From NCBI GenBank assembly GCA_023259065.1, contig JAHFQY010000001.1, positions 66,072 through 130,071 on the forward strand: DNA of 64,000 bases, given 5' to 3'. Below the pieces are notes generated by a model. The model saw only the letters and a list, made by a program, of their open reading frames with translations, was not told the DNA's origin and did no database searches. The position numbers and the translations under genes were made by a program. This document shows positions 6,477 to 48,613 of the stretch, in pieces. This DNA comes from Nitrosomonadales bacterium (GTDB lineage: Bacteria > Pseudomonadota > Gammaproteobacteria > Burkholderiales > Gallionellaceae). Within the stretch, counting starts at the first letter, position 1, and the number at the start of each line of letters is the position of its first letter.

Positions 6477-6484
6477 GGAAAGCG

Positions 6485-10094: not shown

Positions 10095-10130
10095 AGTTAT
10101 GAGTGGTTAAGGTAACATTGCATTCTACAT

Positions 10131-10204
10131 GCGGGTGTAGCTCAATGGTAGAGCAGAAGCTTCCCAAGCTTACGACGAGGGTTCGATTCCCTTCACCCGC
10201 TCCA
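10131..10204 (+). tRNA. tRNA-Gly (anticodon CCC)
   Basis: GCGGGTG...CACCCGC acceptor stem, loop TTCCCAA, GGTTCGATTCC T-arm, encoded CCA; resembles E. coli glyU. Confidence 0.95.
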
Positions 10205-10390
10205 TGATTTTTATGCTTTATCTCATGCGATTTGCTGCTTGTTCATCAAGTATGGATTGTTAACCGGGAGCCTTTGAGGCTTGCTGAGTATCCCTTGGGT
10301 TGATGGGGTTGTGGAGCGTCGGCAGCAGCTCCTTGCTTCGCTCCGTGATAATATATCCAAGTTATCTGTGTAACCCGCCTGTCAGACTAA

Positions 10391-11453: not shown

Positions 11454-12884
11454 GTGGAAGCGACTCAAGCGACACCAGTAAAATATGATATGGACGTAGT
11501 CCGATGGTTTACCATCATGGCCGTCGTTTATCTGGTTGTGGGGACCCTGGTCGGTGTGTATATCGCATCCGAATTGGCGTGGCCATTTTTGAACTTTGAC
11601 ATTCCTGAAATTACCTTTGGTCGTTTGCGTCCGCTGCATACCAATGCGGTGATTTTTGCGTTCGGCGGCTGTACCTTGATGGCGACCGGTTATTACATGG
11701 TGCAACGCACCGGTGCCACCAAGCTGTGGAGCAACGGTCTGGCATGGTTCACCTTCTGGGGCTGGAACCTGATTATCGTTCTGGCCGTGATCACTCTGCC
11801 GCTGGGTATTACCCAGTCCAAGGAGTACGCCGAGCTGGAGTGGCCGATTGACATCATGATCACGATTGTGTGGGTGGCGTTCGGCCTGAACCACATTATG
11901 ACCACCGCAATCCGCAAGACATCGCATATCTACGTTTCCAACTGGTTCACCATGGGCATGATCATCATGATCTCCTATCTGCACCTGGTGAACAGCATGG
12001 CGATTCCCGTTAGCCTGACCCAGTCCTTCTCCATTTTCTCCGGCGTACAAGACGCCATGATTCAATGGTGGTGGGGTCACAATGCGGTGGGTTTCTACCT
12101 GACAGCCGGCTTCCTTGGCATCATGTACTACTTCGTTCCCAAGCAGGCTGGTCGTCCGGTGTTCTCATACCGTCTGTCCGTGCTGCACTTCTGGACGCTG
12201 AGCTTCGGCTACGTCTGGCTGGGTGCGCACCACCTGCAATACACCGCTCTGCCTGACTGGACCGGCTCCCTCGGCGCTGCCATCTCCCTGGCCATGATCA
12301 TCCCGTCATGGGGTGGTGCGATGAACGGCATGATGACCTTGTCCGGCGCATGGGACAAGCTGCGTACCGACTACGTGCTGCGCTTCCTGGTTGTGTCGCT
12401 GGCGTTTTACGCGATGTCCACCTTCGAAGGCCCGGTAATGTCGATCAAGACAGTCAATGCGCTGTCGCACTACACAGACTGGACCGTTGGTCACGTGCAC
12501 TCCGGCGCCCTGGGTTGGGTTGCCATGGTTTCCATGGGCGCGATCTACCATATGGTGATGAAGCTGTGGAATACAAAAATGTACTCCGACAACCTGGTGA
12601 ACGTGCATTTCTGGCTGGCTACAATCGGTGCAGTGGTTTACGTTGTGGCCATGTGGGTGTCAGGAATCATGCAGGGCTTGATGTGGCGTGATTATGACGA
12701 ATACGGCACCTTGACCTACACCTTCGTTGAATCCGTGTCTGCCATGCATCCGTACTACGCGATGCGCGCTATCGGCGGCATGATTTACAACCTGGGCGCC
12801 TGGATCATGCTGTTCAACGTGGTGATGACTGTGCGTCAGGCAACTGCTGCGCGTAGTGTTAACACTGCTACAGCTAACGCATAA
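11454..12884 (+). CDS. ccoN: cbb3-type cytochrome c oxidase subunit I
   Basis: 476 aa, multi-TM heme-copper oxidase with conserved His motifs ([24 protein letters not shown]); GTG start. Confidence 0.97.
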
Positions 12885-12898
12885 GGAGCGAAATAATC

Positions 12899-13660
12899 AT
12901 GGCTGATAAAATTTATTCAACCAAGTTTCAGGACAAGCTGGAACGCAGCACTATCCTGATGTTCATCGTGTCCGCCATTGCAGTTGCTGTTGGCGGTATC
13001 GTGGAAATCGTGCCTTTGTTCTACCTGCCAAATACCGGCATGGGCAATGGAACGGCGCACAAAGACCAGAATGGCAACGTGATTGCCAGCGTGGTGTGGC
13101 AGCCCAAAGCCGGCCAGTCGCTGGATGACTGGCAGCCAGGCGATGGCGTGCGTCCATACAAGGCTCTGGAACTGGCTGGCCGCAGCGTATACCTGCGTGA
13201 GGGTTGCTACCTGTGCCACTCGCAGATGATCCGTCCGTTCCGCGACGAGAAAGACCGTTATGGCCACTACTCCATCGCTGAAGAGTCCATGTACGACCAT
13301 CCGTTCCAGTGGGGTTCCAAGCGTACAGGTCCTGACCTGGCTCGCGTAGGCGCCAAGTATTCCGATGAATGGCACCGCCGCCATCTGAAGTATCCACGTG
13401 ACGTTGTGCCTGAGTCTGTCATGCCTAACTTCTTCTTCCTCGACAAGAAGCCGGTTGATGTGGATAACACCGTAAAGACCATGCAGGTCATGACCAAGAT
13501 GCCTTTCAATCCTGTGCCCAAGGACATTTACACCGCGGATTACATCGCCGGTGCCAAGGCCCAGCTGGAAGGCAAGACAGAAATGGATGCAGTTATTGCT
13601 TACCTGCAGTCCTTGGGTAATCACGTCAAGTTCCAGGAAGGTGTGAACTACCGTGACTAA
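12899..13660 (+). CDS. ccoO: cbb3-type cytochrome c oxidase subunit II
   Basis: GCYLCHSQMIRP heme c motif; follows ccoN. Confidence 0.97.
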   Translation: MADKIYSTKFQDKLERSTILMFIVSAIAVAVGGIVEIVPLFYLPNTGMGNGTAHKDQNGNVIASVVWQPKAGQSLDDWQPGDGVRPYKALELAGRSVYLREGCYLCHSQMIRPFRDEKDRYGHYSIAEESMYDHPFQWGSKRTGPDLARVGAKYSDEWHRRHLKYPRDVVPESVMPNFFFLDKKPVDVDNTVKTMQVMTKMPFNPVPKDIYTADYIAGAKAQLEGKTEMDAVIAYLQSLGNHVKFQEGVNYRD

Positions 13661-13865
13661 GCTGATGGAGTACCTGCACACAGACTGGATGCAGATGACC
13701 TTGAATGACTGGCTGGGAGTGGCTTATACCGTGCTGGGCCTTCTGGCGATGATCGTGGTCTATGTAATGGTGCTCCATCCCAAGAACAAGGAGGCGTACA
13801 ACTCGCAGAGCGATATGGCGCTGCGTGATGACGACGAGCACAACAATTTGGGAGATAAACAATGA
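13653..13865 (+). CDS. ccoQ: cbb3-type cytochrome oxidase subunit CcoQ/FixQ
   Basis: 70 aa single-TM protein between ccoO and ccoP. Confidence 0.85.
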   Translation: MTKLMEYLHTDWMQMTLNDWLGVAYTVLGLLAMIVVYVMVLHPKNKEAYNSQSDMALRDDDEHNNLGDKQ

Positions 13866-14812
13866 GTGACAATCATAAATCCGCTGGTGGCGTGCCTACC
13901 ACCGGACACGTATGGGATGACGATCTGGCCGACCTGGTCAATCAGCCGCCAAAATGGTGGATGCTGGGCCTGACCGCCAGTGCAATCTGGGTAGTGGTGT
14001 ACTGGCTGATGTATCCGGCTGTTCCCGTTGCGTTGAACGGCAACTACTTCAAGGGCGTGGGCTTGCCAGGTTCCGGTCAGTGGACTGCTATCAAGGAACT
14101 GGAGGCTGACCAGAAGGAAGTGGATGCTGTGCGCAGCAAGTACGAGAACAAGCTGAAGGACATGACTCCTGCGGCGATTCTTGCTGACAGTGAGCTGACC
14201 GAGTACGTGACACGTTCCGGCAAGGTGCTGTTCAGTGACAATTGCGCGGCTTGTCATGGCCAGAACGGCGCTGGCACCATTCAAAAGGGCGGCAAATTCG
14301 CCATGCGCGAGCAGGGCTATATGGCGCCAATGCTGAATGACGATGACTGGCTCTTTGGCGGCACCATCGACAAGATCCATGAAACCGTTTCCGGCGGCCG
14401 CCAGGGCGTGATGACGGCGCACAAGGATACCTTGTCGGGGCAGCAAATCGACGACGTGGCCAAGTGGGTGCTGGCCAGCAGCGAAGGCAATGGCAATGCG
14501 CCTGAGTTTGCAGCCGGCAAGAAGGTATTCGCAAGCAGTGACTGCGCATCCTGTCATGGTGCTGATGGCAAGGGCATGCAGGCCATGGGCTCTGCCAACC
14601 TGACAGACAAGATCTGGCGTTTTGACGGCTCTCTGGAAGGCATCAAGCAGACCATTACCTACGGTGTAAACGTGGGCCCTGACGCTCGCAACGCGGTAAT
14701 GCCAAACTTCACCGAAGCCGGCAAGCTGACACCGGCCGAGATCAAGAAGCTGGCTGTGTATGTCTACAAGCTGGGCGGTGGTAAAGCCGACGCTGCTGTA
14801 GCTGCTAAATAA
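13862..14812 (+). CDS. ccoP: cbb3-type cytochrome c oxidase subunit III (diheme)
   Basis: CAACH and CASCH motifs; N-terminal HVWDDDLADLVNQPPKWW. Confidence 0.97.
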   Translation: MSDNHKSAGGVPTTGHVWDDDLADLVNQPPKWWMLGLTASAIWVVVYWLMYPAVPVALNGNYFKGVGLPGSGQWTAIKELEADQKEVDAVRSKYENKLKDMTPAAILADSELTEYVTRSGKVLFSDNCAACHGQNGAGTIQKGGKFAMREQGYMAPMLNDDDWLFGGTIDKIHETVSGGRQGVMTAHKDTLSGQQIDDVAKWVLASSEGNGNAPEFAAGKKVFASSDCASCHGADGKGMQAMGSANLTDKIWRFDGSLEGIKQTITYGVNVGPDARNAVMPNFTEAGKLTPAEIKKLAVYVYKLGGGKADAAVAAK

Positions 14813-14865
14813 ATGCCCCAATAACTGCACGGCGCAAGCCGTGCGGTATTCTCAAGGAGATTTAA

Positions 14866-14994
14866 ATGCATACACATGACATGGTATTTTGGGGCGTGAT
14901 GATCGCCTTTGGTGGTTCTGCCCTGGTTCTGGTCTGGTTGGGATTCATGTTGTGGCGCAACATGAACGACAAGAGCAAGAACGACGGCAAGTAA
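14866..14994 (+). CDS. Small single-TM protein (42 aa) in the cbb3 operon
   Basis: MHTHDMVFWGVMIAFGGSALVLVWLGFMLWRNMNDKSKNDGK; AAGGAG Shine-Dalgarno just upstream; between ccoP and a terminator; below the ORF-track size cutoff. Confidence 0.75.
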   Translation: MHTHDMVFWGVMIAFGGSALVLVWLGFMLWRNMNDKSKNDGK

Positions 14995-15015
14995 GCCTGG
15001 CTGCGCCAGAAACAA

Positions 15016-15041
15016 AGAGGAGCTAACACTCCTCTTTTTTT
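15016..15041 (+). terminator. Rho-independent terminator
   Basis: AGAGGAG-ctaaca-CTCCTCT followed by TTTTTT. Confidence 0.85.
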
Positions 15042-15160
15042 CATTTTGCAATTGATCAGGGCAACTCTGTTTCTGTTTCGCGGCTGATTCGCGGAATAAA
15101 AACAAAGTTATCTTGGAATACAGCGCCCTGGTTCACAGGGCATAATCTTTTGGAGTCATT

Positions 15161-16588
15161 ATGAGCAATCCTGCAACAGGCACCGAGTCCGGTCATGTAA
15201 CCGGACTATATCGCGAACACGAGGAATGGACAGTCAATACCGGCGGGAAAACCATCCACGCCAAGCGCATGCCGGGTTTCTTCCGCACAATGAAATACTT
15301 TACCGCGTTGACGTGGCTGGTTTTCTTCCTCGGCGCCTATCCGCGTTGGCATGGCAAGCAGGCCATTCTTTTTGATGTCACCAATCGCCAGTTTCATTTC
15401 TTCAACATTACCATCCTGCCACAGGATATCTGGATGCTCTCCCTGCTGTTGTTGCTGATGGCGATGACCCTGTTTGCCGTGACCTCGGTGGCTTCGCGCG
15501 TATTTTGCGGATACTTCTGCTTTCAGACGGTATGGACAGATGTGTTTACCTGGATAGAGGAAAAAATCGAAGGTCAGCCCGGGCAGCGCCGCAAGCTGGA
15601 TGGGGCGCCCTGGAGCGTGACAAAAGTCCGCTTGAAGCTGATGAAACATGCAGCCTGGCTGGCGATCTCGGTGCTGACGGGCATCAGCTTCTCCATATGG
15701 TTCGTGGATGCGTTTGACTACTGGCATGACCTGCTCACGCTCAACTTGCCTGTCATAGGCTGGGCGACACTGGTCGCCTTTATTCTCGGCACCTACATCC
15801 TCGCGGGATTCTTGCGCGAGCAGACCTGCTTCTGGCTCTGTCCTTACGCACGCATTCAAGGCGTGATGACAGATGCGCAAACCATCCTGCCTACCTATGA
15901 TGAAAACCGCGGTGAACCGCGCGGCAAATTGCGCCGCCATGAAGAAGGCGCGGCGAAACAGGGGGATTGCATCGACTGCTTCCAGTGCGTGCAGGTATGC
16001 CCAACCGGTGTGGATATACGCCAGGGGCAGCAGCTTGGATGCATTACCTGCGGGTTGTGCCTGGACGCCTGTGACTCAGTCATGGACAAGATCGGCCGTC
16101 CACGCGGCCTGATACGTTATGCCTCGCTGGACGAGATGGAAGGGCGCCCGGTCAAGAAGCTGTACCAGCATCCGCGCACCTTTGTGTACATCGGCATTAT
16201 CCTGCTGGCACTGAGTGGAATCATCTACGGCCTGACTCACCTCGGGGCACTGGTGCTGAGAGTGGCTCCGGAGCGCCAGCCCCTGTTTGTGCGCATGAGT
16301 GACGGCTCAATCCAGAACAAATACGTGTTCAAGGTGCTGAACAAGACCAACAAGGACATGTATGTGACAGTCAAGGCTGAAGACGGGATCAGCGGCCAGC
16401 AGATCATCGGCGCTGAACAGCCAATACTTGTGTATCACGGCAGGGCAACGCCATTCACGATTTTCGTGAAGGCGCCGGAGAAAAATATTCACGAGGAAAT
16501 TACACCTATCGAATTTCGTGTGGAGGGTGTGGACCACCCTGAAATTTCTTCCGAATACCAGACCATGTTCAATGGCCCCAAGCCATGA
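15161..16588 (+). CDS. ccoG: Cytochrome c oxidase accessory protein CcoG (polyferredoxin)
   Basis: CIDCFQCVQVCPTGVDIRQGQQLGCITCGLCLDAC; C-terminal Ig-like domain. Confidence 0.95.
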   Translation: MSNPATGTESGHVTGLYREHEEWTVNTGGKTIHAKRMPGFFRTMKYFTALTWLVFFLGAYPRWHGKQAILFDVTNRQFHFFNITILPQDIWMLSLLLLLMAMTLFAVTSVASRVFCGYFCFQTVWTDVFTWIEEKIEGQPGQRRKLDGAPWSVTKVRLKLMKHAAWLAISVLTGISFSIWFVDAFDYWHDLLTLNLPVIGWATLVAFILGTYILAGFLREQTCFWLCPYARIQGVMTDAQTILPTYDENRGEPRGKLRRHEEGAAKQGDCIDCFQCVQVCPTGVDIRQGQQLGCITCGLCLDACDSVMDKIGRPRGLIRYASLDEMEGRPVKKLYQHPRTFVYIGIILLALSGIIYGLTHLGALVLRVAPERQPLFVRMSDGSIQNKYVFKVLNKTNKDMYVTVKAEDGISGQQIIGAEQPILVYHGRATPFTIFVKAPEKNIHEEITPIEFRVEGVDHPEISSEYQTMFNGPKP

Positions 16589-16622
16589 TGCCGGGTAATC
16601 GGACAACAGTGGAGAGCATGAA

Positions 16623-17174
16623 ATGATTTCGCAAAAGAACAAACAGGGCTGGCGCAACCCGTGGGTGTTTGCACTGGTGGCGATTATCCTGGTGGCGCTG
16701 CTGAACAACGGGCGCATGCTGTGGGATGCCTTTCACCATCGTGTGCGCATGCTGGATGAGAGCTACAGCGTGAAGAGCCACAAGGATGAGGCCAAGTGGG
16801 TGCAGCAGCAGGCTGAGCGCACAACGCTGGGGTGGCAGGCCAGCCTGCGTTCCGCGCAGCAGTTGAAGAATGACAGCATGGCCACGCCAAGCGCCGCCAG
16901 ATTCATCCTGGTGGCCAGCCCGGCCGTGTTCCAGTTCGACCTGAAAGACCGCGATGGCAAGCCTTTGCAGGGCGCCCAGGTGCAGGTCAATGCACAGTGG
17001 CCGGGCAGCCAGACCTTCGACTTCAACGGCACACTGCAGGAATCCGCACCGGGCCATTATGTGGGCAGCATGACCTTCCCGCGTACAGGTAACTGGGATC
17101 TGGTGATCAATGCCCGGCAGGACGGGCGCCTGTTCGATCTGGAACAGAAAGTGTTTGTCGCAGTCGCGCAATAA
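16623..17174 (+). CDS. ccoH: FixH/CcoH family protein
   Basis: N-terminal TM plus FixH-like domain, between ccoG and ccoI. Confidence 0.85.
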   Translation: MISQKNKQGWRNPWVFALVAIILVALLNNGRMLWDAFHHRVRMLDESYSVKSHKDEAKWVQQQAERTTLGWQASLRSAQQLKNDSMATPSAARFILVASPAVFQFDLKDRDGKPLQGAQVQVNAQWPGSQTFDFNGTLQESAPGHYVGSMTFPRTGNWDLVINARQDGRLFDLEQKVFVAVAQ

Positions 17175-17191
17175 TTCAAGCAGCAAATCTG

Positions 17192-19654
17192 ATGCAGCAA
17201 ACAAGCAGCAACTCACAAGCGCACGCCGGCTGTTTCCACTGCGGGCTGGCGATTCCCGATGACGCAAATTATCACCATCGCCTGGATGGCGAGTTGCGTG
17301 ATTTCTGCTGCTTCGCGTGCCAGTCGGTATGCGAGGCAATTTATGATGCCGGCCTGCAGGGCTATTACCAGCGCACGCCGGAGGGAGTGCTGCTGGCGCC
17401 GCCGCCGACGCCGCCCAAAGATATCGAGATGTATGACCTGGAGGATGTGCAGCAGGAGTACGTGACCTGCCAGGGCGAGATACGCGACATACACCTGCTG
17501 GTCGAGGGCATCCATTGCGCAGCGTGCGTGTGGCTGATCGAGCGCGGCATGATGCGCACGCCGGGAGTGCAGCAGGCCAACGTAAACATGGCCGGAAAAC
17601 GCCTGCACCTGCGCTGGGATAATCAGCGCGTCAAACTTTCCGCCATCATCCGCCTGCTCTCAAAGATCGGCTATGCCGGCGTCCCTTACGACCCGGAAGC
17701 GGCCGAAGGGTCGATCAAGAAGACCAATCGCGCCATGCTGTTCCGCCTGATTTTTGCAGGCTTCACCATGATGAACCTGATCTGGATTTCCATCGCGCTA
17801 TACAGCGGTGCGAACGATGGAGAGTTCAGGAATTTTTTCCACTGGATGGGCTGCGCTCTCGCCACGCCCACCCTGCTTTACTCCGGTTACCCCTTCTACA
17901 AGGGCGCGTGGAGCGGCTTGCGCAATGCTCGCCTGACCATGGATCTGCCCATCGCCATCGGGCTTAGCGTGACCTATACCTACTCGCTGTATGTCACCAT
18001 CGCGGGCAGCAAGGCGGGCGAGGTGTATTTCGACACGGTGACCAACCTGATCTTTGTCATTCTGGTGGGGCGCTATCTGGAAGGCATGTTCCGCCACCAG
18101 GCAGTGTCCGCGACCAACCGCCTGATGGAACTGCAGCCGCGCGTGGCGACTGTGCTGAACAATGGAGAGGAAAAAATAACCTCGATACGCGCGGTTAAGA
18201 TAGGTGATCGCCTGCTGGTCAAGCCGGGCAGCAAGATTCCCATGGACGGCATTGTGTGCGAGGGGCGCAGCTCGGTCGATGAATCCATGCTCAGCGGCGA
18301 GTCCATGCCGGTTTCCAAGCATGCAGGCGACCACGTTGCAGCGGGCACATTGAATACCAGCGGCGCGCTGGTGATGGAAGTGCAGGCCAGCCTGCAGGAT
18401 TCCACCCTGTCCAAAATCATCCGCCTGGTCGAGGAGGCGCAGTCATCCAAGGCGCCGATACAGCGCCTGGCGGACACGATAGTGCCGTGGTTTGTGCTGG
18501 TCACGCTGATATGCGCGGGGCTTACATTCTTCGCCTGGTCGGCGCATTTCGAGCTGGGCTTGATGGCGGCCACATCCGTGCTGATTATTACCTGCCCCTG
18601 CGCGCTGGGCATGGCCACCCCCATGTCCATTGCAGTGGCCTCGGGGCTGGGAGCCAAGCACGGCATTCTGATCAAGAACGGCGTGGTGCTCGAAACATTA
18701 TCCAGGGTCACCCATTTTGTTTTTGACAAAACCGGCACCCTCACCGAAGGCAGGATGCGGGTGGAGCGCACCCTCGTCGTTGCCGGGCAGGATGCCGGCC
18801 AGCTGCTGGCTGATGCGGCAGCGGTGGAGCGTTTTTCCGAGCACAGCGTGGCGCAGGCCATCGTGCGCGAGGCAGACGAACAACAGCTGCCTTACCGCAA
18901 TATGGATGTGACAGGATTCCATGCCAGCGCAGGCTTGGGGGTGGAGGCGCAGCTAGGTGGCAAGCGCATGTTGTTGGGCACGCTGGAGTGGCTCAGGCGC
19001 AAGGAAGTGGCGCTGGATGAGGGCTTGCTGGCGCAACTGCCCGCGTTGGAAGCGGAGGCAAAAACCTGTGTGCACTGCGCCGTGGCCGGGCGTCATGTTG
19101 CCATGCTGGTGCTGGCCGACACCCTGCGCCCGGATGCGCCGGGCCTGATCAACACCCTGCGCGAGGCCGGCATAGGCATGACCCTGTTGAGCGGTGATCG
19201 CAAGCCCGTGGCGGAAGCCATTGCGCGCCAGCTGGGCGGCATGGAGGTGATCGCCGAGGTGCTGCCGCAGGACAAGGACAGGGTGATACAACAGTTGCAG
19301 CAGCGCGGCGAGTGCGTGGCCATGGTGGGTGACGGCATCAACGATGCGCCGGCGCTGATCCGCGCCGACGTGGGAATCGCGCTGGGCTCGGGCACGGATG
19401 TGTCGGTGGAAAGTGCGGACATCGTGCTGATGAAAAACGAGCTGGACAAGGTGCGCTTGGCCACCCTGCTGTCGCGCCGTACCCTGCGCACCATCAAGCA
19501 GAATATCGGCCTGTCGTTCGTGTATAACAGCATCATGGTGCCGCTGGCGATGATGGCCCACGTCACCCCGCTGGTGGCTGCCATCACCATGCCGATCAGC
19601 TCCTTGCTGGTGATAGGCAATGCGGCGCGCATCCGCAATTTGTTCAGGCAATAG
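17192..19654 (+). CDS. ccoI: Copper-translocating P-type ATPase for cbb3 maturation
   Basis: CxxC HMA region (GIHCAACVW), CPC metal motif (ITCPCALGMATP), DKTGTLTEG. Confidence 0.95.
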   Translation: MQQTSSNSQAHAGCFHCGLAIPDDANYHHRLDGELRDFCCFACQSVCEAIYDAGLQGYYQRTPEGVLLAPPPTPPKDIEMYDLEDVQQEYVTCQGEIRDIHLLVEGIHCAACVWLIERGMMRTPGVQQANVNMAGKRLHLRWDNQRVKLSAIIRLLSKIGYAGVPYDPEAAEGSIKKTNRAMLFRLIFAGFTMMNLIWISIALYSGANDGEFRNFFHWMGCALATPTLLYSGYPFYKGAWSGLRNARLTMDLPIAIGLSVTYTYSLYVTIAGSKAGEVYFDTVTNLIFVILVGRYLEGMFRHQAVSATNRLMELQPRVATVLNNGEEKITSIRAVKIGDRLLVKPGSKIPMDGIVCEGRSSVDESMLSGESMPVSKHAGDHVAAGTLNTSGALVMEVQASLQDSTLSKIIRLVEEAQSSKAPIQRLADTIVPWFVLVTLICAGLTFFAWSAHFELGLMAATSVLIITCPCALGMATPMSIAVASGLGAKHGILIKNGVVLETLSRVTHFVFDKTGTLTEGRMRVERTLVVAGQDAGQLLADAAAVERFSEHSVAQAIVREADEQQLPYRNMDVTGFHASAGLGVEAQLGGKRMLLGTLEWLRRKEVALDEGLLAQLPALEAEAKTCVHCAVAGRHVAMLVLADTLRPDAPGLINTLREAGIGMTLLSGDRKPVAEAIARQLGGMEVIAEVLPQDKDRVIQQLQQRGECVAMVGDGINDAPALIRADVGIALGSGTDVSVESADIVLMKNELDKVRLATLLSRRTLRTIKQNIGLSFVYNSIMVPLAMMAHVTPLVAAITMPISSLLVIGNAARIRNLFRQ

Positions 19655-37549: not shown

Positions 37550-38536
37550 TCAGATCACCTTGGCGCGCAGCAGGTCGCCCATGTTCAATGCGCCCACCAG
37601 CTTGTTGTCGCTATCCACCACCAGCATCTGGCTGATGTTGCGTTCTTCCATGATGCGCACCGCCTCCACGGCCAGGGCATTGGCCGTGGTGCATTGCGGC
37701 TTGCGTGTCATCACCGCGCTGACCGGAGTGGTGGCAAAGTCCAGCTGCTTTTCCAGGGTGCGGCGCAAGTCGCCGTCGGTGTAGATGCCCAGCACCTGTT
37801 GTGCCTCGTCCACGACGGCAGTCATGCCCAAGCCCTTGCGTGACATCTCCATGATGGCATCCGCCAGCGTGGCATTCTGCGGTACTGCGGGCACTTTCTG
37901 TCCGGTGTGCATGATGTCGCGCACATGGGTGAGCAGGCGCCGTCCCAGGCTGCCGCCGGGGTGCGAGCGGGCAAAGTCTTCTTCGCCGAAACCCTTGGCG
38001 TCGAGCAGCGCCACCGCCAGCGCATCGCCCAGGGCCAGGGCCGCTGTGGTGCTGGCCGTGGGGGCGAGGCCCATCGGACAGGCTTCCTTGTCGACTGCGC
38101 CATTGAGGTGGGCGTCCGCTGCCAGGGCCAGGCTGGAGCGCGGGTTGCCGGTCAGGCTGATGAGTTTCGCGCCCTGGCGTTTGATCACCGGCACGATGGT
38201 CATCAGCTCGTCGCTCTCACCCGAATACGACAGCGCAATAAACACATCCTGCGAGGTGATCATGCCCAGGTCGCCGTGGCTGGCTTCGCCGGGGTGCACG
38301 AAATAAGCGGGGGTGCCGGTGCTGGACATGGTGGCGGCAATCTTGCGCGCGATATGGCCGGATTTGCCCATGCCGCTGACGATCACGCGTCCTTCACAGG
38401 CGAGGATGATGTTGAGTGCGCGCAGGAAGTTGTCATCAATGCGTTGGGTGAGCGCCTGTACGGCGGCGGCCTCGGTAATGATGACTTCGCGTGCCAGGGC
38501 CAGCGCGTGGGGAGCGGCAGAGAGGGGTTTTTTCAT
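37550..38536 (-). CDS. kdsD: D-arabinose 5-phosphate isomerase
   Basis: SIS domain (GRVIVSGMGKSGHIARKIAATMSSTGTPAYFVHPGEASHGDLG) plus two CBS domains; ATG at 38536. Confidence 0.95.
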   Translation of the reverse strand: MKKPLSAAPHALALAREVIITEAAAVQALTQRIDDNFLRALNIILACEGRVIVSGMGKSGHIARKIAATMSSTGTPAYFVHPGEASHGDLGMITSQDVFIALSYSGESDELMTIVPVIKRQGAKLISLTGNPRSSLALAADAHLNGAVDKEACPMGLAPTASTTAALALGDALAVALLDAKGFGEEDFARSHPGGSLGRRLLTHVRDIMHTGQKVPAVPQNATLADAIMEMSRKGLGMTAVVDEAQQVLGIYTDGDLRRTLEKQLDFATTPVSAVMTRKPQCTTANALAVEAVRIMEERNISQMLVVDSDNKLVGALNMGDLLRAKVI

Positions 38537-38636
38537 GCGGCCAATTATATCAGTGCACCTGACCGGCCGCGAAATTTTGAATGCGCGCCCGACTTGAGGC
38601 ATTATCGGGGCATGTTTACCTTGAGTGTGCTTGTTG

Positions 38637-40607
38637 ATGAATAATGCCCTGACCCTAGTCTTGATTTTGCTGGCCGTTGCTGTGGTGGTGGTTGTGCTGT
38701 TCCGCATCCTGCGCCTGCCAGTGATGCTGGGTTATCTTATTGTCGGCATTCTGATCGGCCCGCACGCGCTGGGCTGGATACCGGAAACGGCGGAAACGCG
38801 CCATCTGGCGGAATTTGGCGTGGTGTTCCTGATGTTCAGCATCGGCCTGGAGTTCAGCCTGGGCAAGCTGCGCAGCATGCAGCGCCTGGTATTCGGGCTG
38901 GGCACGGCACAGGTGGCGGCCACCATAGTGCTGGTGATGCTGACCTCGCTGTTTTTCGGGCTGGACTGGCGTGCCGGCCTCGCCCTGGGCGGGGTGCTGG
39001 CCATGTCTTCCACCGCCATTGTCAGCAAGATGCTGGTGGAGCGTGCCGAGCTGAACATGTCGCACGGGCAGAAAATCATGGGAGTGCTGCTGTTCCAGGA
39101 TCTGGCCGTGGTGCCGCTGATTATTGTCATCCCCGCACTGGCCAGCACGTCCGGTGATTTGTCGGTCACCTTGGGGCTGGCCTTGCTCAAGGCTACCGTG
39201 GTGCTGGCCGCGTTGCTGATCTTCGGCCAGCGCCTGCTACGCCCCTGGTTTCACCTGGTGGCACGGCAAAAATCCTCCGAGCTGTTCATGCTCAACGTGC
39301 TGCTGTTTACCCTGGGCATGGCCTTTTTCACCGAATTGAGCGGGCTGTCCATGGCGCTGGGCGCGTTCGTCGCCGGCATGCTGATCTCGGAAACCGAATA
39401 TCGTTACCAGGTGGAAGAGGACATCAAGCCTTTCCGTGATGTCCTGCTCGGCTTGTTCTTTGTCACCGTCGGCATGATGCTGGACATGGGCAGCCTGATT
39501 GCGGGCTTTGGCTGGGTGCTGCTGGTTTTGCTGATCCTGCTGCCGTTCAAGGCCATGGTTGTAGCCTTGCTGGCGCGCGGGTTTACCGGTGATTGGGGTG
39601 TGGCGATACGCACCGGCCTGGGCCTGGCGCAGGCCGGTGAATTTGGCTTTGTGTTGCTGACCCTGGCCGGTGGAGTGAATATCCTGCCTGCAGATGTGAT
39701 GCAGAATGTGCTGGCGGCGATGCTGATTTCCATGCTGCTGGCGCCCTTCCTGATTCAGCATGCAGAAGCGATAGTGCGGCGTATTTCACCCAATGAATGG
39801 ATGAATCAGGCCATGCATATGCACCAGATTGCGGTGCAAAGCATGTGCGCGGACGAGCATATCATCCTGTGCGGTTATGGACGCAGCGGGCAGGCGCTGG
39901 GGAAATTCCTGAAACGCGAAGGCATTGCTTTCGTCGCGCTGGAGCTGGATTCGCGCAATGTGCGCGAAGCGCTGGCCGCCGGGGAAAGCGTGGTGTATGG
40001 CGATGCCGGCAAGCGCGAGGTGTTGCTGGCGGCAGGGCTGATGCGCGCCAAGGTGCTGGTGATCACTTATGCCGACCAGCATTCGGCGCTGAAAATCCTG
40101 CACCACGTCAAGGTATTGCGCCCCGGTCTTTCCGTGGTGGTGCGCACCACCGACGATACGCATGTGGAAGCACTCAGGCGTGCCGGGGCTGCCGAGGTGG
40201 TGGCCGAGGTGCTGGAAGGCAGCGTGATGCTGGCCTCGCAGGCGCTGATACTTTCTGGCGTGCCGCTCAACCGCGTGATCCGTCGCATCCAGGAAAACCG
40301 CGCACGTCGTTACAGCGTGTTCAGCGGCTATTTTCGCAGCGGCAATGACGTGGACGATACTGTCGACACGGGGCAGCCGCGCATACGCAATGTGCTGTTG
40401 GGGCAGGATTGCGGTGCGGTCGGCAAGACGCTGGATGAGATGGAGCTGGATGAATTCAATGTCGAAGTGAATGCCGTGCGCCGCCACAATGTGCAAGGCA
40501 GCCAGCCGGCAGGAGACATGGTACTGCATGCGGGTGACGTGCTGATGCTGCAGGGGCAGCCGGAAGAGTTGGCGGCTGCGGAGAAGCGGCTGCGCGAAGG
40601 GCGATAA
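38637..40607 (+). CDS. CPA2 family monovalent cation:proton antiporter (KefB/C-like) with TrkA-N domain
   Basis: 12-TM antiporter core, LCGYGRSGQALGKFL Rossmann motif, C-terminal TrkA-C domain. Confidence 0.92.
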   Translation: MNNALTLVLILLAVAVVVVVLFRILRLPVMLGYLIVGILIGPHALGWIPETAETRHLAEFGVVFLMFSIGLEFSLGKLRSMQRLVFGLGTAQVAATIVLVMLTSLFFGLDWRAGLALGGVLAMSSTAIVSKMLVERAELNMSHGQKIMGVLLFQDLAVVPLIIVIPALASTSGDLSVTLGLALLKATVVLAALLIFGQRLLRPWFHLVARQKSSELFMLNVLLFTLGMAFFTELSGLSMALGAFVAGMLISETEYRYQVEEDIKPFRDVLLGLFFVTVGMMLDMGSLIAGFGWVLLVLLILLPFKAMVVALLARGFTGDWGVAIRTGLGLAQAGEFGFVLLTLAGGVNILPADVMQNVLAAMLISMLLAPFLIQHAEAIVRRISPNEWMNQAMHMHQIAVQSMCADEHIILCGYGRSGQALGKFLKREGIAFVALELDSRNVREALAAGESVVYGDAGKREVLLAAGLMRAKVLVITYADQHSALKILHHVKVLRPGLSVVVRTTDDTHVEALRRAGAAEVVAEVLEGSVMLASQALILSGVPLNRVIRRIQENRARRYSVFSGYFRSGNDVDDTVDTGQPRIRNVLLGQDCGAVGKTLDEMELDEFNVEVNAVRRHNVQGSQPAGDMVLHAGDVLMLQGQPEELAAAEKRLREGR

Positions 40608-40629
40608 AAAAGCCCGCCGAAGCGGGCTT
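40606..40629 (-). terminator. Rho-independent terminator for the minus-strand prepilin gene
   Basis: AAGCCCGC-cgaa-GCGGGCTT; T-run on the minus strand; touches the end of the antiporter CDS. Confidence 0.8.
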
Positions 40630-40651
40630 GAATGTCACGCCGGGTTAATGT

Positions 40652-41320
40652 TTATACGCCCATGCAGACGGTGTAGGCCTGACCATCATTTATGCCGGCA
40701 GAGGTAACCGATTGTCCAGCCGCAAGTGGATCTGCAGCTCGCATGGAGCCTGTGTTGGCTTCGCCATCGTCCATTGTTATGTCCAGTTGCTTGACATATT
40801 TACCCAAAATGCCGGTGGAGCAGATTATGTAAGTGCCAGACATAAGGCTGGCAGCGCCTGCGGCGTTTTTAGTGATGGTGACGAAAGTGCCATTGTTGCT
40901 CTGGATGCCAATGGTGCCGCCATCGGCGTTGGTTGGGCGGTAGTCAGCGACGCCAGTGGTGGGGCCATTTGCAAGGCCAGCAAGGCGGATATGTTGCCAA
41001 AAAATTTGAGACTCATCAGTCGCACTTACTGAAGACCACAATCCGTCTATCGAACCATTTCCGGCAACTGCAGAAGCTGGCACAAGGGCGGCGGCGCCCA
41101 AATGAGTGGCTGCATTTGCATCATCTCCAGGCAGTGCACGGTATTTGTCTTGGTAACCGTAGATAAAGACAGGGATGTTGCGGAAGTCGTTGGCAATATT
41201 TTTTACCTTGGCGCTGTTGATCAGCTCCTGGCCCTTGAGTACGCCGCCGAGCAGCAGGCCGATAATCACCAGCACGATGGCGATTTCGATTAGAGTAAAG
41301 CCGGATTGATTGTGTTTCAT
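40652..41320 (-). CDS. Type IV pilin-like/prepilin N-methylation domain protein
   Basis: MKHNQSGFTLIEIAIVLVIIGLLLGGVLKGQELI class III prepilin signal. Confidence 0.88.
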   Translation of the reverse strand: MKHNQSGFTLIEIAIVLVIIGLLLGGVLKGQELINSAKVKNIANDFRNIPVFIYGYQDKYRALPGDDANAATHLGAAALVPASAVAGNGSIDGLWSSVSATDESQIFWQHIRLAGLANGPTTGVADYRPTNADGGTIGIQSNNGTFVTITKNAAGAASLMSGTYIICSTGILGKYVKQLDITMDDGEANTGSMRAADPLAAGQSVTSAGINDGQAYTVCMGV

Positions 41321-41491
41321 GATGGTCTCCAGTTGATAATTTTTCGCATTATATAGCCTTGTGTTTGATTTAAAGCAATAGCTGTGCCAAATTTAAAATC
41401 GCATTGATTATTAATAAATTTCATGCGGTATTCAAGAGTTGTGTCAATTGGCTAACAACTGAAATGACGAAATTCTGACAGGGGTGACGAG

Positions 41492-43177
41492 ATGGCGACA
41501 AGAGTGCTGCGGTATTTGCTGGGATCCAGTCGCTGGTGGTCCCTGGTCATGTTGGCCACTTTGCACCTTGCCTTGTTGGTGGGGGTGCAGTCGCTTTTGG
41601 CGAAGTCGTTGCTGTTGACGCACCTGGGCTTATTCCTGCTGTGGCAGCCACTGTGGCGGGGTGAAAGCAATTTAAGCCGGGGGAATGCAGTATTTATTCT
41701 GGCCTCTGGCATCGTGCCCGTGATCTGGCTTAACTGGTGGATGCTGGCATTCTGGGTGTCGGGCTTGTTCGCTCTGGTGGGAGGGCGGGTGCTGGTGTAT
41801 CAATCCAAGTGGCAGCGCCTGCATTACCAGCTGACGATGGTTTATCTGCTGGCGGTGCTGCTGTTCTGGATCACGCCGCACTTGTTTGATTTACCCTCTG
41901 TGGGCGAGGCGACCAGCGATCTAATGGAACTGGCCTTGCCATTGCTGTTGCTGGGCATGGCGCTGGTGCCGCACGAGCATGAGCATGTGGGCAAGGCGCA
42001 GGCTGTGGATTTTGTATATGTCATCATGTTATTTATGATGTTGATTTTGCTGGTGTTGGGCAGCCTGGTGGTGATGAGCCAGGCCAACCTGGATTATTTC
42101 GGGGCCCTGCTGCGCACCGTGTTCATCATGGCGTTGCTGCTGTTTCTGCTGGGGTGGCTGTGGAGCCCGCGCATGGGATTTTCGGGCCTGCAACCGCTTT
42201 TTTCACGTTACTTTCTCAATATTGGCACGCCGTTTGAAGAGTGGCTGGGGCAGCTTGCTGTTACTGCCCAGCAGGAGCAAGGCGCGGCTAGCTTCATGTT
42301 GCGCGCCATGGATCAGCTTGCCAAGTTGCCCTGGGTAACAGGCTTGTCCTGGGAGTGCGAAGAAGGACATGGCACGCTGGGCGTGTCATCGCCACACCGT
42401 ATTGAAATGAGCGATAACGATCTGCGCTTGACACTGTTCAGCCGCCAGTCAATAGCACCTTCAGTGCTGGTGCATATTCATCTGCTGATTCAGCTGCTCG
42501 GTCACTTCTACCAGGCCAAGCGGCGCGAACAAAGCCTGCGTGAAATGGCGCGTCTGCAAGCCGTGTATGAAACCGGCGCCAGGCTCACGCATGATTTGAA
42601 GAACATGCTGCAGTCCCTGCTGGCGCTAACCTCCATTGCCGAACACCAACCCGACCAGGCCCAGCCGGTATTGCAACAGCAATTGCCGGTGCTGACGCAG
42701 CGCATCGAGCTGACCCTGGCCAAGCTCAAGGCACCGCAACTGACAGCTGACGCAACCACTTTGACCCTGGCACGCTGGTGGGGAAATTTACGTTTGCGCC
42801 AGCAGCATCGCCAGATAGAGTGGCTGAGCTCAGGCAGTCCGGGCCAGCAGCTGGTTCCGGCAGCGCTGCTGGACAGCGTCGCGGATAACCTGATTGATAA
42901 TGCCTGCAACAAGTTGTTGCGCGAGCCGGATATCAGGATCAGCGTGATCCTGCGCGCGAATCCATTGAGCTTGTCGGTGTGCGATAGCGGCAGCGCCATT
43001 CCCGACATCGTTGCAGAGCAGTTGCTGCGCACTGTGGTGGCATCCGAAGACGGCTTGGGTGTGGGCCTGTTTCAAGCAGCACGCTGGGCAGAGCAATCCG
43101 GCTATCACATCAGCTTGCGCGAGAATGTGGACGGAGCGGTTTGTTTTGAATTGCGGCAGTCGGATGATGTGTCCTAG
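41492..43177 (+). CDS. Multi-TM sensor histidine kinase-like protein
   Basis: About 7 N-terminal hydrophobic segments; DHp-like ARLTHDLKNMLQSLLAL; N-box DNLIDNACNKLL and G-box DGLGVGLF. Confidence 0.8.
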   Translation: MATRVLRYLLGSSRWWSLVMLATLHLALLVGVQSLLAKSLLLTHLGLFLLWQPLWRGESNLSRGNAVFILASGIVPVIWLNWWMLAFWVSGLFALVGGRVLVYQSKWQRLHYQLTMVYLLAVLLFWITPHLFDLPSVGEATSDLMELALPLLLLGMALVPHEHEHVGKAQAVDFVYVIMLFMMLILLVLGSLVVMSQANLDYFGALLRTVFIMALLLFLLGWLWSPRMGFSGLQPLFSRYFLNIGTPFEEWLGQLAVTAQQEQGAASFMLRAMDQLAKLPWVTGLSWECEEGHGTLGVSSPHRIEMSDNDLRLTLFSRQSIAPSVLVHIHLLIQLLGHFYQAKRREQSLREMARLQAVYETGARLTHDLKNMLQSLLALTSIAEHQPDQAQPVLQQQLPVLTQRIELTLAKLKAPQLTADATTLTLARWWGNLRLRQQHRQIEWLSSGSPGQQLVPAALLDSVADNLIDNACNKLLREPDIRISVILRANPLSLSVCDSGSAIPDIVAEQLLRTVVASEDGLGVGLFQAARWAEQSGYHISLRENVDGAVCFELRQSDDVS

Positions 43178-43383
43178 GCGTGTTAACCCACCCTGGCACA
43201 TCAAAAATAGCAAACTTGATAATGACATCTTGCAGTGCTGCCGAAGCCTTTGTTTATTAGGGTTCTATTATGCTTGAATTTTTTGACAGTCGATTTTAGC
43301 TTCTGTATGTTTCGCCGCGAGTAGTCATAATCAAGAACATTGGCTGCGGGGATAATAATTAAGATTCTTAATCAGGGAGATTA

Positions 43384-44676
43384 ATGATGAAAAAAATAGT
43401 TATTGCACTGGCTGCAATATTGGTGAACGCAATATTTGCGCCGTCAGCCTCCGCGTTGCCCGTGTTCGCACGTCAAACAGGCTTTGCATGTAATCAGTGC
43501 CACTTTCAGCATTATCCCATGCTGAATGCCTTTGGACGCTCCTTCAAGGCGGGTGGCTTTACCATGATAGGCGCACAACCCAAAGTGGAAGGCGATGGCC
43601 TGTCAATGCCTGATCGTTTGAACCTTGGTGTGCTGACAACTCTGGGCATTGAAAAGGTAAGCAATGGTGGTGGATTGAGTACTGACGGAGTAACACCCGT
43701 CGATGATTCGGTGAATACTCCTGCGGGTGGCGGTGAGCTGTCCCTGTTCTTCGGTGGTCGTATCAGTGAAAACGCAGGTTTTCTTGCTGAGATGGGCACG
43801 GCCGGCACGGCTGGCGTGACTGCTGCCAAATTGCCCATGTTTTATGACATTGCAGAAGGCACTCATGCTGGTTTGGTATTCGTGACAACCGATGGCCAGG
43901 GCGCGGCGCACAGCTATGAAACGATGAATACGGGCGCGTCAGCCGTGCACAAACTAATGAACATCCCGGGCCAGGTAAATCAATATGTTCGTGCGTTTTC
44001 AGCGGCTCAATACCTGAACACTGCCACTGCGGCACAAGGTGCCTCCTTCGTGGTTAACAATGACAACTACTTTGTCAACGTGGGCAAGTATGCGATTCCA
44101 GCAGCTATGGGGGCATCAACGAAAGGCGGCAGCATGCGCATGACCTACATGCGTGCGGCAGCCATGTTTGATGTGGCCGGCTTTGATTCCGGGGTGGGTG
44201 TACAGGCATTCCGGGGTGATGACGGAGTGCTCGCAGTTGCTACTGGAACTGAGGCCACGATGGTCGACGGGCAGATGCAAGGCCAGGTAGGCACCATGCC
44301 ATTGGGTGTCTATGTTTCATATGGCGTGGCGCCCGTTGTGAACTTCACCGATGCTGTTGGAAACCACTTCAACATGGGTGGTGTCGTGGATGCCAAATCG
44401 CTGAATATTGCTGCGGAGGTGGGGGTGGTTCCTGGCATCGTAACGCTAATGGCCTCATGTCGTGCCGCGAATGACGGCAGGGTGAGTGCCGCAAATGAAA
44501 ATCTGACAGACAATGCCGTGATGGTGGGTCTGACTTACACTCTGGCCATGAATATGCAAATCAGCCTCGCATACACGGCCCAGTCTGGTACCGCATGGGA
44601 TGCGGCAAATAATGTGGGCGGTGTAGAGCCTGCCGGCAAAACAACTACTGCTCTTGCGATGATGGTGCTGTTCTAA
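43384..44676 (+). CDS. Cyc2-like monoheme cytochrome c/outer membrane porin fusion (candidate)
   Basis: Signal peptide, then LPVFARQTGFACNQCHFQHYPMLNAFGRSFKAGGFTMIG with one CxxCH, then about 380 aa porin-like sequence ending in hydrophobic/Phe (MMVLF). Confidence 0.7.
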   Translation: MMKKIVIALAAILVNAIFAPSASALPVFARQTGFACNQCHFQHYPMLNAFGRSFKAGGFTMIGAQPKVEGDGLSMPDRLNLGVLTTLGIEKVSNGGGLSTDGVTPVDDSVNTPAGGGELSLFFGGRISENAGFLAEMGTAGTAGVTAAKLPMFYDIAEGTHAGLVFVTTDGQGAAHSYETMNTGASAVHKLMNIPGQVNQYVRAFSAAQYLNTATAAQGASFVVNNDNYFVNVGKYAIPAAMGASTKGGSMRMTYMRAAAMFDVAGFDSGVGVQAFRGDDGVLAVATGTEATMVDGQMQGQVGTMPLGVYVSYGVAPVVNFTDAVGNHFNMGGVVDAKSLNIAAEVGVVPGIVTLMASCRAANDGRVSAANENLTDNAVMVGLTYTLAMNMQISLAYTAQSGTAWDAANNVGGVEPAGKTTTALAMMVLF

Positions 44677-44735
44677 GGTGGTTTAATGATGTGAATTGCT
44701 GTCGCTAATAACATCCAGGCGCGCAGCAATAAAGC

Positions 44736-44770
44736 AAACAGGGGAGACTTCGGTCTCCCCTGTTTTTTTT
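44736..44770 (+). terminator. Rho-independent terminator
   Basis: AAACAGGGGAGAC-TTCG-GTCTCCCCTGTTTTTTTT. Confidence 0.92.
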
Positions 44771-44803
44771 TGTGCCTGCGGCTTTCGGGTACAATCGCGC
44801 GCC

Positions 44804-47800
44804 ATGAATTTACCTCCCGACTCCGCAACACCTGAAGCTCCTCCCGCCAATTCGCCGCAGGCGCGCCGTGCCGCGCGCATCGCGGCGGTGCAACCGATAG
44901 AGTACCCGGCCGAGCTGCCGGTGGTGTTGCGGCGCGAGGATCTGGCACAGGCCATCGCGCAGCATCAGGTGGTGATCGTGTGCGGCGAGACCGGCTCGGG
45001 CAAGACCACGCAACTGCCCAAGATTTGCCTGGCGCTGGGGCGCGGGGTGCAGGGCGTGATTGCGCATACGCAGCCGCGCCGCGTGGCGGCGCGCACGGTG
45101 GCGGCCCGCGTGGCGCACGAGCTCAAGACCGAGCTGGGCGGGCTGGTCGGTTACAAGATACGCTTCAACGACCGCGTGTCGCCCGACACTTGTATTAAAT
45201 TAATGACCGACGGCATTTTGCTGGCGGAAATCCAGAGCGACCCCAGGCTCAGGCATTACGACACCATCATCATCGACGAGGCGCACGAGCGCTCGCTCAA
45301 TATCGATTTCCTGCTCGGCTATTTCAAGCAGCTGTTGCCCAGGCGGCCCGATCTCAAGCTCATCATCACCTCGGCCACGCTGGATGCGGAGCGCTTCTCC
45401 AAACACTTTTCCGGCGCGCCGGTGCTGCAGGTATCCGGCCGCAGCTATCCGGTGGAGGTGCGCTACCGCCCGCCGCAGGTGAACGAGGAGGGCGAGGTGC
45501 AGGATGTGCCACAGGCGGTATGCACTGCACTGGACGAACTCTCCGTGGGCGGTTTGCGCGGCGATGTGCTGGTGTTTTTGCCGGGCGAGCGCGAGATACG
45601 CGACACGGCGGAAGCGCTGCGCAAGCACCACCTCCCTCAGAGGAAACAGGGAGGTGTGGAAATCCTGCCGCTGTTTTCACGCCTCTCCGCGGCCGAGCAG
45701 GACCGCGTATTCAAGCCCGCAGGCGGCACGCGCCGCGTGGTGCTGGCCACCAACGTGGCGGAGACTTCGCTCACCGTGCCCAATATCGGCTACGTGATTG
45801 ACTGCGGTACGGCGCGCATCAACCGTTACAGCATCCGCCAGAAAGTGGAGCAGCTGCGCGTGGAAAAAATTTCACGCGCTGCGGCCAACCAGCGCGCCGG
45901 CCGTTGCGGACGCGTGATGAGTGGCATCTGCGTGCGCCTGTACGACGAGGCGGACTTTATCGCACGCGCCGAATACACCGATGCGGAAATCTTCCGCGTG
46001 TCGCTGGCCACCGTCATCCTGCGCATGAGCGCCCTGCGCCTGGGCGAGGTGGAGAAATTCCCCTTTATCGAGCCGCCGGGTTCACGCTCGATTGCGGATG
46101 GTTACCAGTTGCTGGGTGAGCTGGGCGCGATTGACGCGGAACGCCAGCTTACCCCCTTGGGGCGCGAGCTGGCCCGCCTGCCGCTGGACCCCAAGATTGC
46201 GCGCCTGCTGCTGGCCGGGCGCCAGTATCAGTGCCTGCAGGAAATCCTCATTATCGCCAGCGCGCTGTCGCTGCAAGACCCGCGCGACCGCCCTGCGGAG
46301 CGGCGCGAGGCGGCGGATAACGCACACCAGCGCTTCAACGACGAGCGCTCGGATTTTCTCGCCTACATCAAATTGTGGGCGTGGTTTCAGGAAGCCTTGC
46401 GCCACAAGAAAACCAACCGCCTGTGGGCGAACGAGTGCCGCGAGAAATTCCTTTCGCCCATGCGCCTGCGCGAATGGCATGAGCTGTACCAGCAGCTGCA
46501 TGCGCAGGTGGTGGAAATGGGCATGCGCCTGAACGAGCAGCCAGCCAGCTACGAGCAGGTGCACAAGGCCTTGCTCACCGGCCTGCTCGGCAACATCGGC
46601 TGCAAGGGTGTGGAGCGCGAGCCGTATTATCTGGGGCCGCGCGAGATCAAGTTTTTCATCGCGCCGAATTCGGTGCTGGCGAAGAAGGGGACGAAATGGG
46701 TGGTCGCCGCCGAGATCGTGGAGACTACCAAGCTGTATGCGCGTTGCGTTGCGCGCATCGAGCCGGAGTGGCTGGAGGAAGTGGGCGCCCATATGATCAA
46801 GCGCACCTACTACGATCCGCACTGGGAAAAGAAGGCGGCGCAGGTGGCGGCGTTCGAGCGCAGCACCCTGTACGGCCTGCTGATCAACCCGAAGAAGCGG
46901 GTGAACTACGGGCCGATGAATGTGGCCGAGTCGCGCGCGGTGTTTATCCGCCAGGCGCTGGTCGAGGGCGAGTTCAACACCATGGCGCCGTTCTTCGCGC
47001 ACAACCAGAAATTGATCCGCGACATCGAGGCGCTGGAGCACAAGTCGCGCCGCCCCGATGTGCTGGTGGATGACGAGCTGATCTTCGCCTTTTACGACAG
47101 CCGCATCGCTGCACATATTCACAACGGTGCGGCATTCGAGGCATGGCGCAAGGAGGCGGAGCGCGACAAGCCGAAGCTGCTGTACCTGCAGCGCGACGAT
47201 TTGATGCGCCACGAGGCGGCTGGCATCACCACCGACCAGTTTCCGCCACAGCTGGTGATGAACAACGTGAGCTATGCGCTGGCCTACAATTTTTCTCCCG
47301 GCAAGAGTGACGATGGCGTCACGCTCTCCGTGCCGCTTGCGCTGATCAACCAGGTGTCGGCGGCACGCTGCGAATACCTGGTGCCGGGTGTGCTGGTGGA
47401 GAAAGTGGTGCAGCTGCTGAAAACCCTGCCACAGAAAATACGCCGCAACCTGGTGCCGGTGCCGGAGTTCGCGGCAACTTTCTGCAGCGAGGCCGGGCCC
47501 TCCGACACCGGCTTGCTGCTGGCGCTGGCGCGTTACATCCGCAGCAAGAAGCAGCTCGATGTGCCGCTGGATGCCTTCCGCATCGAACAGCTGCCGCAAC
47601 ACCTGCTGATGAATTTTGCGGTGGTGGATGAGCACGGGCGTCAGCTGCGCATGTCGCGCAACTTTGGGCAGCTGCGTGCGGAGCTGGCGCCGAAGCAGGC
47701 CGCGGTTGCCATTGCCGCGCCAGCAACTGCCGCGCCCGGAGCCGCGCCGCTTGCGGCAAGCGCGCGCTTTAGCGAATGGAATTTTGGCGAGTTCAAGACT

Positions 47801-48613
47801 ACCACCGAGATTGTCCGCGCCGGCCAAACCATCACCCTGTTCAATGCGCTGGTGGATGACAGTGACGCCGTGGTGCTGCGCGCCTACGACACGCGCGAGG
47901 AGGCGCAAGCCGCACACAGGCTGGGCCTGCGCCGCTTGTTCATGCTGGCGCTGAAGGAGCAGGTGAAATTCCTGGAGAAGAACCTGTTCTCCAGCAAGGA
48001 ATACGGGCAGACCATGACCATGCAGTTCCTGCCCTTCGGCAGCGCGCAGGATTTGCAGCGGCAGATTTTTGCCGTCACCTTTGACCGCTGCTGCCTGGGC
48101 GACCCGCTGCCTGGCAACGACAAGGAATTCGCCACGCGCTGCAAGGAGGCGAAGAGCCGGCTGAACCTGGTGGCGCAGGAAATTGCGCGCCTGCTCAGCA
48201 CCATCCTGCAGGAATATCACACCCTGCAAAAAGCGCTGCCCGCATTCAAGGCGCATGGTGCGGCTGTGCAAGACATACGCGCGCAGTGCGAATGGATGCT
48301 GCACAGGGAGTTTGTCGGGCGCACGCCGTATGAGCGCCTGCAGCACATGCCGCGCTACCTCAAGGGCATCAACATGCGCCTGGAAAAACTGCGCGCCGAC
48401 CCCGCGCGCGATGCGCGCCAGTATGCGCAAATGGCCGCGCTGCAACAGGCATGGCAGCGCAAGCTGACAGCACAGCAGGGCAATGTGGATGGCAAGGTGG
48501 AGGAGTTCGGCTGGCTGCTGCAGGAACTGCGCGTGTCGCTGTTTGCGCAGGAGCTGAAGACGCCGGTGATCGTGTCGGTAAAGCGCTTGCAGAAGATGTG
48601 GGAAGGACTATAA
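44804..48613 (+). CDS. hrpA: ATP-dependent RNA helicase HrpA
   Basis: GETGSGKTTQLPKICL, DEAHERSLNIDFLLGY, QRAGRCGR; start MNLPPDSATPEAPP. Confidence 0.95.
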   Translation: MNLPPDSATPEAPPANSPQARRAARIAAVQPIEYPAELPVVLRREDLAQAIAQHQVVIVCGETGSGKTTQLPKICLALGRGVQGVIAHTQPRRVAARTVAARVAHELKTELGGLVGYKIRFNDRVSPDTCIKLMTDGILLAEIQSDPRLRHYDTIIIDEAHERSLNIDFLLGYFKQLLPRRPDLKLIITSATLDAERFSKHFSGAPVLQVSGRSYPVEVRYRPPQVNEEGEVQDVPQAVCTALDELSVGGLRGDVLVFLPGEREIRDTAEALRKHHLPQRKQGGVEILPLFSRLSAAEQDRVFKPAGGTRRVVLATNVAETSLTVPNIGYVIDCGTARINRYSIRQKVEQLRVEKISRAAANQRAGRCGRVMSGICVRLYDEADFIARAEYTDAEIFRVSLATVILRMSALRLGEVEKFPFIEPPGSRSIADGYQLLGELGAIDAERQLTPLGRELARLPLDPKIARLLLAGRQYQCLQEILIIASALSLQDPRDRPAERREAADNAHQRFNDERSDFLAYIKLWAWFQEALRHKKTNRLWANECREKFLSPMRLREWHELYQQLHAQVVEMGMRLNEQPASYEQVHKALLTGLLGNIGCKGVEREPYYLGPREIKFFIAPNSVLAKKGTKWVVAAEIVETTKLYARCVARIEPEWLEEVGAHMIKRTYYDPHWEKKAAQVAAFERSTLYGLLINPKKRVNYGPMNVAESRAVFIRQALVEGEFNTMAPFFAHNQKLIRDIEALEHKSRRPDVLVDDELIFAFYDSRIAAHIHNGAAFEAWRKEAERDKPKLLYLQRDDLMRHEAAGITTDQFPPQLVMNNVSYALAYNFSPGKSDDGVTLSVPLALINQVSAARCEYLVPGVLVEKVVQLLKTLPQKIRRNLVPVPEFAATFCSEAGPSDTGLLLALARYIRSKKQLDVPLDAFRIEQLPQHLLMNFAVVDEHGRQLRMSRNFGQLRAELAPKQAAVAIAAPATAAPGAAPLAASARFSEWNFGEFKTTTEIVRAGQTITLFNALVDDSDAVVLRAYDTREEAQAAHRLGLRRLFMLALKEQVKFLEKNLFSSKEYGQTMTMQFLPFGSAQDLQRQIFAVTFDRCCLGDPLPGNDKEFATRCKEAKSRLNLVAQEIARLLSTILQEYHTLQKALPAFKAHGAAVQDIRAQCEWMLHREFVGRTPYERLQHMPRYLKGINMRLEKLRADPARDARQYAQMAALQQAWQRKLTAQQGNVDGKVEEFGWLLQELRVSLFAQELKTPVIVSVKRLQKMWEGL
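45629..45656. repeat. Small inverted repeat within hrpA
   Basis: CACCTCCCT-cagaggaaac-AGGGAGGTG. Confidence 0.6.

Follow-up and report, generated by a model that had tools for sequence, protein, structure and literature searches.

The stretch analysed here (the window, 64,000 nucleotides from a Gallionellaceae genome) carries an open reading frame that the first-pass annotation had taken for a Cyc2-like fusion of a monoheme cytochrome c and a porin, which raises the question of whether the gene equips its host to oxidise iron at the outer membrane. Our preferred reading, held at a probability of about 0.93, is that an uncultured Gallionellaceae iron oxidiser here encodes a Cyc2 of Cluster 1 type, acting as an outer-membrane Fe(II) oxidase; this draws on sequence, structure prediction and analogy with characterised relatives. 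The locus would add one Cluster 1-type Cyc2 and point to Fe(II) oxidation as a likely trait of one Gallionellaceae genus.

The cyc2 gene (fused monoheme cytochrome c/16-strand porin; 43384..44676, + strand) is an ATG-to-TAA frame of 430 aa. Its product reads M-MKKIVIALAAILVNAIFAPSASA-LPVFARQTGFACNQCHFQHYPMLNAFGRSFKAGGFTMIG..., as in the earlier annotation. The second Met (codon 2, at 43387) is the probable start of translation, since MKK is invariant in 20 of 20 aligned homologues. The signal peptide-like segment (MKKIVIALAAILVNAIFAPSASA; 43387..43455, + strand), recognised from sequence and family conservation, has a hydrophobic core, looks signal-like by eye and closes in ...SASA, placing a presumed cleavage site near A24. 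It is followed by the cytochrome domain, LPVFARQTG-FA-CNQCH-FQHYPMLNAFGRSFKAGG (43456..43560, + strand), to which sequence, aligned homologues and the motif definition of PMC8406198 assign one covalent heme site. The protein contains exactly one CxxCH, the CNQCH in ALPVFARQTGFACNQCHFQHYPMLNAFGRSFKAGGF. The signal-like start and the single CxxCH directly after FARQTG described in the first reading are both present in the frame. Cyc2 proteins have been identified by AXPXFAR[Q/K][T/Y] upstream of CXXCH (given as 5 aa) and PXL downstream, together with a porin and a minimum length of 365 aa (PMC8406198). Here ALPVFARQT is followed by GFA and then CNQCH, with the same spacing as in aligned homologues; PxL appears as FQHYPML after CNQCH, and 430 aa exceeds the length threshold. 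Cyc2 averages ~400 aa (PMC12442345), and the full-length homologues aligned here mostly span ~400-475 aa, with GFT or GYT as the family norm. The suggestion that a short barrel and the GFT spacing mark a divergent clade therefore fails, because both length and GFT/GYT spelling are normal for the family.

Sequence searches of Pfam, NCBIfam and the PDB with the window protein returned no match. Relatives were nevertheless detected in 30 of the 61 genomes searched (its own and related ones), the nearest being 65% identical and from the same genus (G003). An alignment query of named genomes recovered 78 loci, most of them near full length, from Gallionella, Sideroxydans, Ferriphaselus sp. R-1, Chlorobium sp. 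N1, Mariprofundus micogutta, Ghiorsea and others; this range of relatives makes a Gallionellaceae bacterium the most likely source of the window. A single-sequence scan of the genome contigs recovered no relative, presumably as a result of overly specific patterns; a viral-contig scan also found none, and a plasmid collection gave only partial N-terminal matches, in Ralstonia, Caballeronia, Paraburkholderia and Methylocystis.

Membership was then scored with purpose-built profiles in place of the recognised Cyc2 models, the FeGenie HMMs. Test profiles were built without the window protein or its close kin to avoid circularity, and residues 66 onward were scored separately as the barrel alone. 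A profile of Zetaproteobacteria, Chlorobium and Ferriphaselus gave 308 bits for the whole protein and 194 for the barrel alone; one restricted to Zetaproteobacteria gave 149 and 62 bits, respectively. A profile of distant Cyc2-like proteins from outside the family gave 66 bits for the whole protein, all from the head domain, and 4.7 for the barrel. The best of 200 shuffled sequences reached 3.9 bits against 308 for the real frame, shuffles overall staying at or below ~6 bits. These scores, together with the matches in 30 of 61 genomes, indicate that neither the frame nor its motif is a product of chance.

The window protein was placed in a tree of 100 rows, rooted at the midpoint only and built without Acidithiobacillus and Leptospirillum references. 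It joined its same-genus relative (support 100) and fell in an 18-row clade (98) within a 28-row Gallionellaceae Cyc2 clade (SH-aLRT 99) that includes Gallionella, Sideroxydans and Ferriphaselus R-1. Gallionellaceae, Chlorobium and Zetaproteobacteria were split with support 100 from five distant Cyc2-like proteins that belong to other families of the same order; these three groups match the composition published for Cyc2 Cluster 1. The protein thus lies inside the Gallionellaceae Cyc2 group, neither in a divergent clade nor among non-iron porins. That it is an unrelated cytochrome–porin fusion, or a porin with a fortuitous CxxCH, would accord with the absence of a match from any curated family model but has a negligible chance of being right, being already refuted by this tree and the independent profiles and contradicted by the alignment of the whole protein, barrel included, with named Cyc2-bearing lineages and by the invariant residues in both domains.

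It is also very improbable that the gene belongs to the distant Cluster 2/3-type Cyc2, whose function is uncertain. Such an assignment could appeal to the FARQT..CxxCH head, which is common to the distant proteins and yields the 66 bits noted above, but no similarity to their barrels could be detected (4.7 bits, against 194 to Cluster 1-type barrels), and the tree separates the two. By our own profiles and tree, rather than by the FeGenie HMMs, the window protein behaves as Cluster 1. On sequence and model grounds it is a Cyc2 of the Gallionellaceae group, and an ordinary one: a new sequence of a well-known type.

The predicted structure agrees with this placement. AlphaFold2, run on a 53-sequence alignment, returned a model with pLDDT 85.1, pTM 0.85 and 16 main strands spanning residues 80-429, confidence being low in the N-terminal ~31 residues, signal peptide included, and in a short loop at 245-247. 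The predicted beta-barrel domain (43621..44673, + strand) ends in a C-terminal Phe. Its top Foldseek matches in the PDB were the 16-stranded general porins OmpF, PorB and Omp32 (E down to 3e-10, TM ~0.5-0.6), and the published Cyc2 model is also a porin of 16 strands, plugged by the cytochrome (PMC8406198). The porin-like part that had been annotated from sequence is predicted to be a 16-strand barrel, and the Cyc2 identity proposed at first reading is borne out by the published motifs, the nesting with Gallionella, Sideroxydans and Ferriphaselus, the strong Cluster 1-type profile score and this fold. Family membership, a single heme motif and a predicted barrel stand as the results of alignment and modelling.

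Compared with Gallionellaceae Cluster 1 Cyc2 (Gallionella, Sideroxydans, Ferriphaselus sp. R-1), the window protein is alike in full-length alignment, head motif, single heme, length of ~430 aa, 16-strand barrel and genome context. It is 65% identical to the G003 protein but only ~45-54% identical to most of its own subclade, and its heme motif is CNQCH in place of the commoner CSACH. Architecture and motifs also resemble those of the biochemically tested Cyc2 of M. ferrooxydans PV-1 (PMC8406198); zetaproteobacterial relatives other than PV-1 align over nearly the whole length at only ~26-28% identity. Homologues in the photoferrotrophic lineage Chlorobium (Chlorobium sp. N1 and isolate L304-S-6D) are 35-36% identical over the aligned length but belong to phototrophs and form a separate subclade. 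MtoAB and PCC3 have the same proposed task of moving electrons across the outer membrane, but divide it between a porin and multiheme proteins, where Cyc2 is a single monoheme fusion.

How the protein would work is taken from characterised relatives, as are Fe(II) oxidation itself, the membrane location, the position of the heme domain and the direction of electron flow. Once exported through Sec and with heme covalently bound at CNQCH, Cyc2 would enter the outer membrane and span it as a 16-stranded barrel, its small heme domain lying at the N-terminal, periplasm-facing mouth. Fe(II) would reduce the heme at the pore or within it, and the electron would pass to a periplasmic cytochrome and on to the respiratory chain, probably ending at a cbb3 oxidase. 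Because electrons would be relayed through the Cyc2 heme, iron could be oxidised without entering the cytoplasm. Cyc2-bearing Gallionellaceae iron oxidisers all have at least one Cluster 1 Cyc2, which has been judged an iron oxidase (PMC10734462), and the Cluster 1 Cyc2 of M. ferrooxydans PV-1 has been shown to oxidise Fe(II) (PMC8406198).

The genomic background is compatible with such a pathway. The source genome (2.31 Mb) is 77% complete, so that gene absences are not interpretable; a single cyc2 copy was found. RuBisCO is present (G000:C26). Within the window, a cbb3 oxidase cluster, ccoN-ccoO-ccoP-ccoG with linked ORFs up to a copper P-type ATPase (11490..19654, + strand), is a plausible terminal oxidase for the same organism. 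A PCC3-like locus at a contig end (L109, G000:C51:28000-39421, at 5560-10867) comprises a 22-heme ORF, an 11-heme ORF and a 606-aa ORF resembling an outer-membrane protein. No MtoA-type decaheme scored above the curated cut-off in this 77% complete genome, and the search for alternative complex III was uninformative, its model TIGR04519 having no match in the controls. RuBisCO, the cbb3 cluster and the PCC3-like locus fit an autotrophic, microaerobic Fe(II) oxidiser.

A protein that is Cyc2 by descent might instead serve mainly another electron source, or sense Fe(II), without being a growth-supporting iron oxidase. Cyc2 function beyond the tested members is itself extrapolated, iron oxidation is not in every case matched by cyc2 expression, a sensory function has been suggested in Sideroxydans CL21 (PMC12442390 for both), and the PCC3-like locus could move electrons in this genome. 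A sensor kinase is, moreover, a conserved neighbour of cyc2: directly upstream lies a membrane sensor histidine kinase with a PrsK-like C-terminal catalytic part (41492..43177, + strand). Several Gallionellaceae, however, have the same kinase with no cyc2 beside it, as do other families of the order in which cyc2 is lacking, and some genomes that have both carry them on different contigs, so the kinase–cyc2 link looks positional. This is also the sole cyc2 found in an incomplete genome, and it comes from the best-supported Fe(II)-oxidising group. We consider a mainly sensory or other-donor role improbable, and retain the reading as a Cluster 1-type Fe(II) oxidase. A dedicated kinase–Cyc2 regulatory pair was likewise considered and rejected on the occurrence of the kinase without cyc2 and of both on separate contigs. 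The N-terminal part of the kinase has no family match, and its immediate neighbours include no obvious response-regulator gene.

Downstream of cyc2 lies an hrpA-type ATP-dependent helicase gene (44804..48613, + strand), named by eye from sequence and probably functionally unrelated to cyc2. Between the two, the strong terminator first annotated for cyc2 was recovered as an intrinsic terminator-like hairpin with a T run (44736..44773, + strand), its 13-pair stem and 4-nt loop occupying 44736-44765 and the T run following them. A possible sigma-70-like promoter, TTGACA-17-TATGTT (43283..43311, + strand), matches at 10 of 12 positions, which is not above chance expectation. Low GC3 of cyc2 was weighed as a sign of recent foreign origin and set aside as weak, as 71 of 98 homologues also lie below their own flanks.

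The order KdsD, Kef antiporter, pilin-like gene (opposite strand), kinase, cyc2 and hrpA is kept wholly or partly in many Gallionellaceae (window 37550-48613 and loci L084, L088, L093, L095 and L110-L119). The kinase and Cyc2 trees are discordant across these loci. The kinases of three same-genus loci group together (97/94), but a topology that unites the corresponding Cyc2 proteins is rejected (AU p 0.00014). In the kinase tree the window pairs with L111; the window Cyc2, among slot loci, pairs with that of L114. Pairing the window Cyc2 with that of L111 is disfavoured (AU p 0.029), and the reverse test on the kinase gave p far below 0.001. These comparisons are most simply read as replacement of Cyc2 at its site, through transfer or conversion between paralogues; this is a lead only, as some clades were picked post hoc and long-branch effects or unrecognised paralogy could play a part. 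We tentatively propose, at somewhat less than even odds, that the kinase–hrpA site is an exchange slot, fixed across Gallionellaceae, in which homologous recombination with paralogues or other species' copies has replaced Cyc2 several times, swapping iron oxidases without moving the locus and perhaps keeping kinase regulation. Frequent Cyc2 transfer has already been reported from trees (PMC12442345), and the kinase–cyc2–hrpA slot found no mention in the literature searched; a conserved slot with discordant Cyc2 trees would offer a concrete, testable route for that transfer.

Several further observations were made at these and other loci. Elsewhere in the window, a patatin-like phospholipase (51390-52571) is weakly similar to CBASS phospholipase effectors, far under the cut-off. 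In L096 (507-1985), the CxxCH head and the barrel of a cyc2-like sequence appear in separate frames, which may point to a disrupted gene or a faulty assembly. At the kinase–hrpA slot, a same-genus Cyc2 (L016, G002, 1504-2736; L110) has YSRQT replacing FARQT and is nearer to Rhodocyclales/Burkholderiales Cyc2 (support 81). Tandem or close-set cyc2 copies occur in several Gallionellaceae (L116, L032 and L120, in G033, Gallionella palsa_995 and G007).
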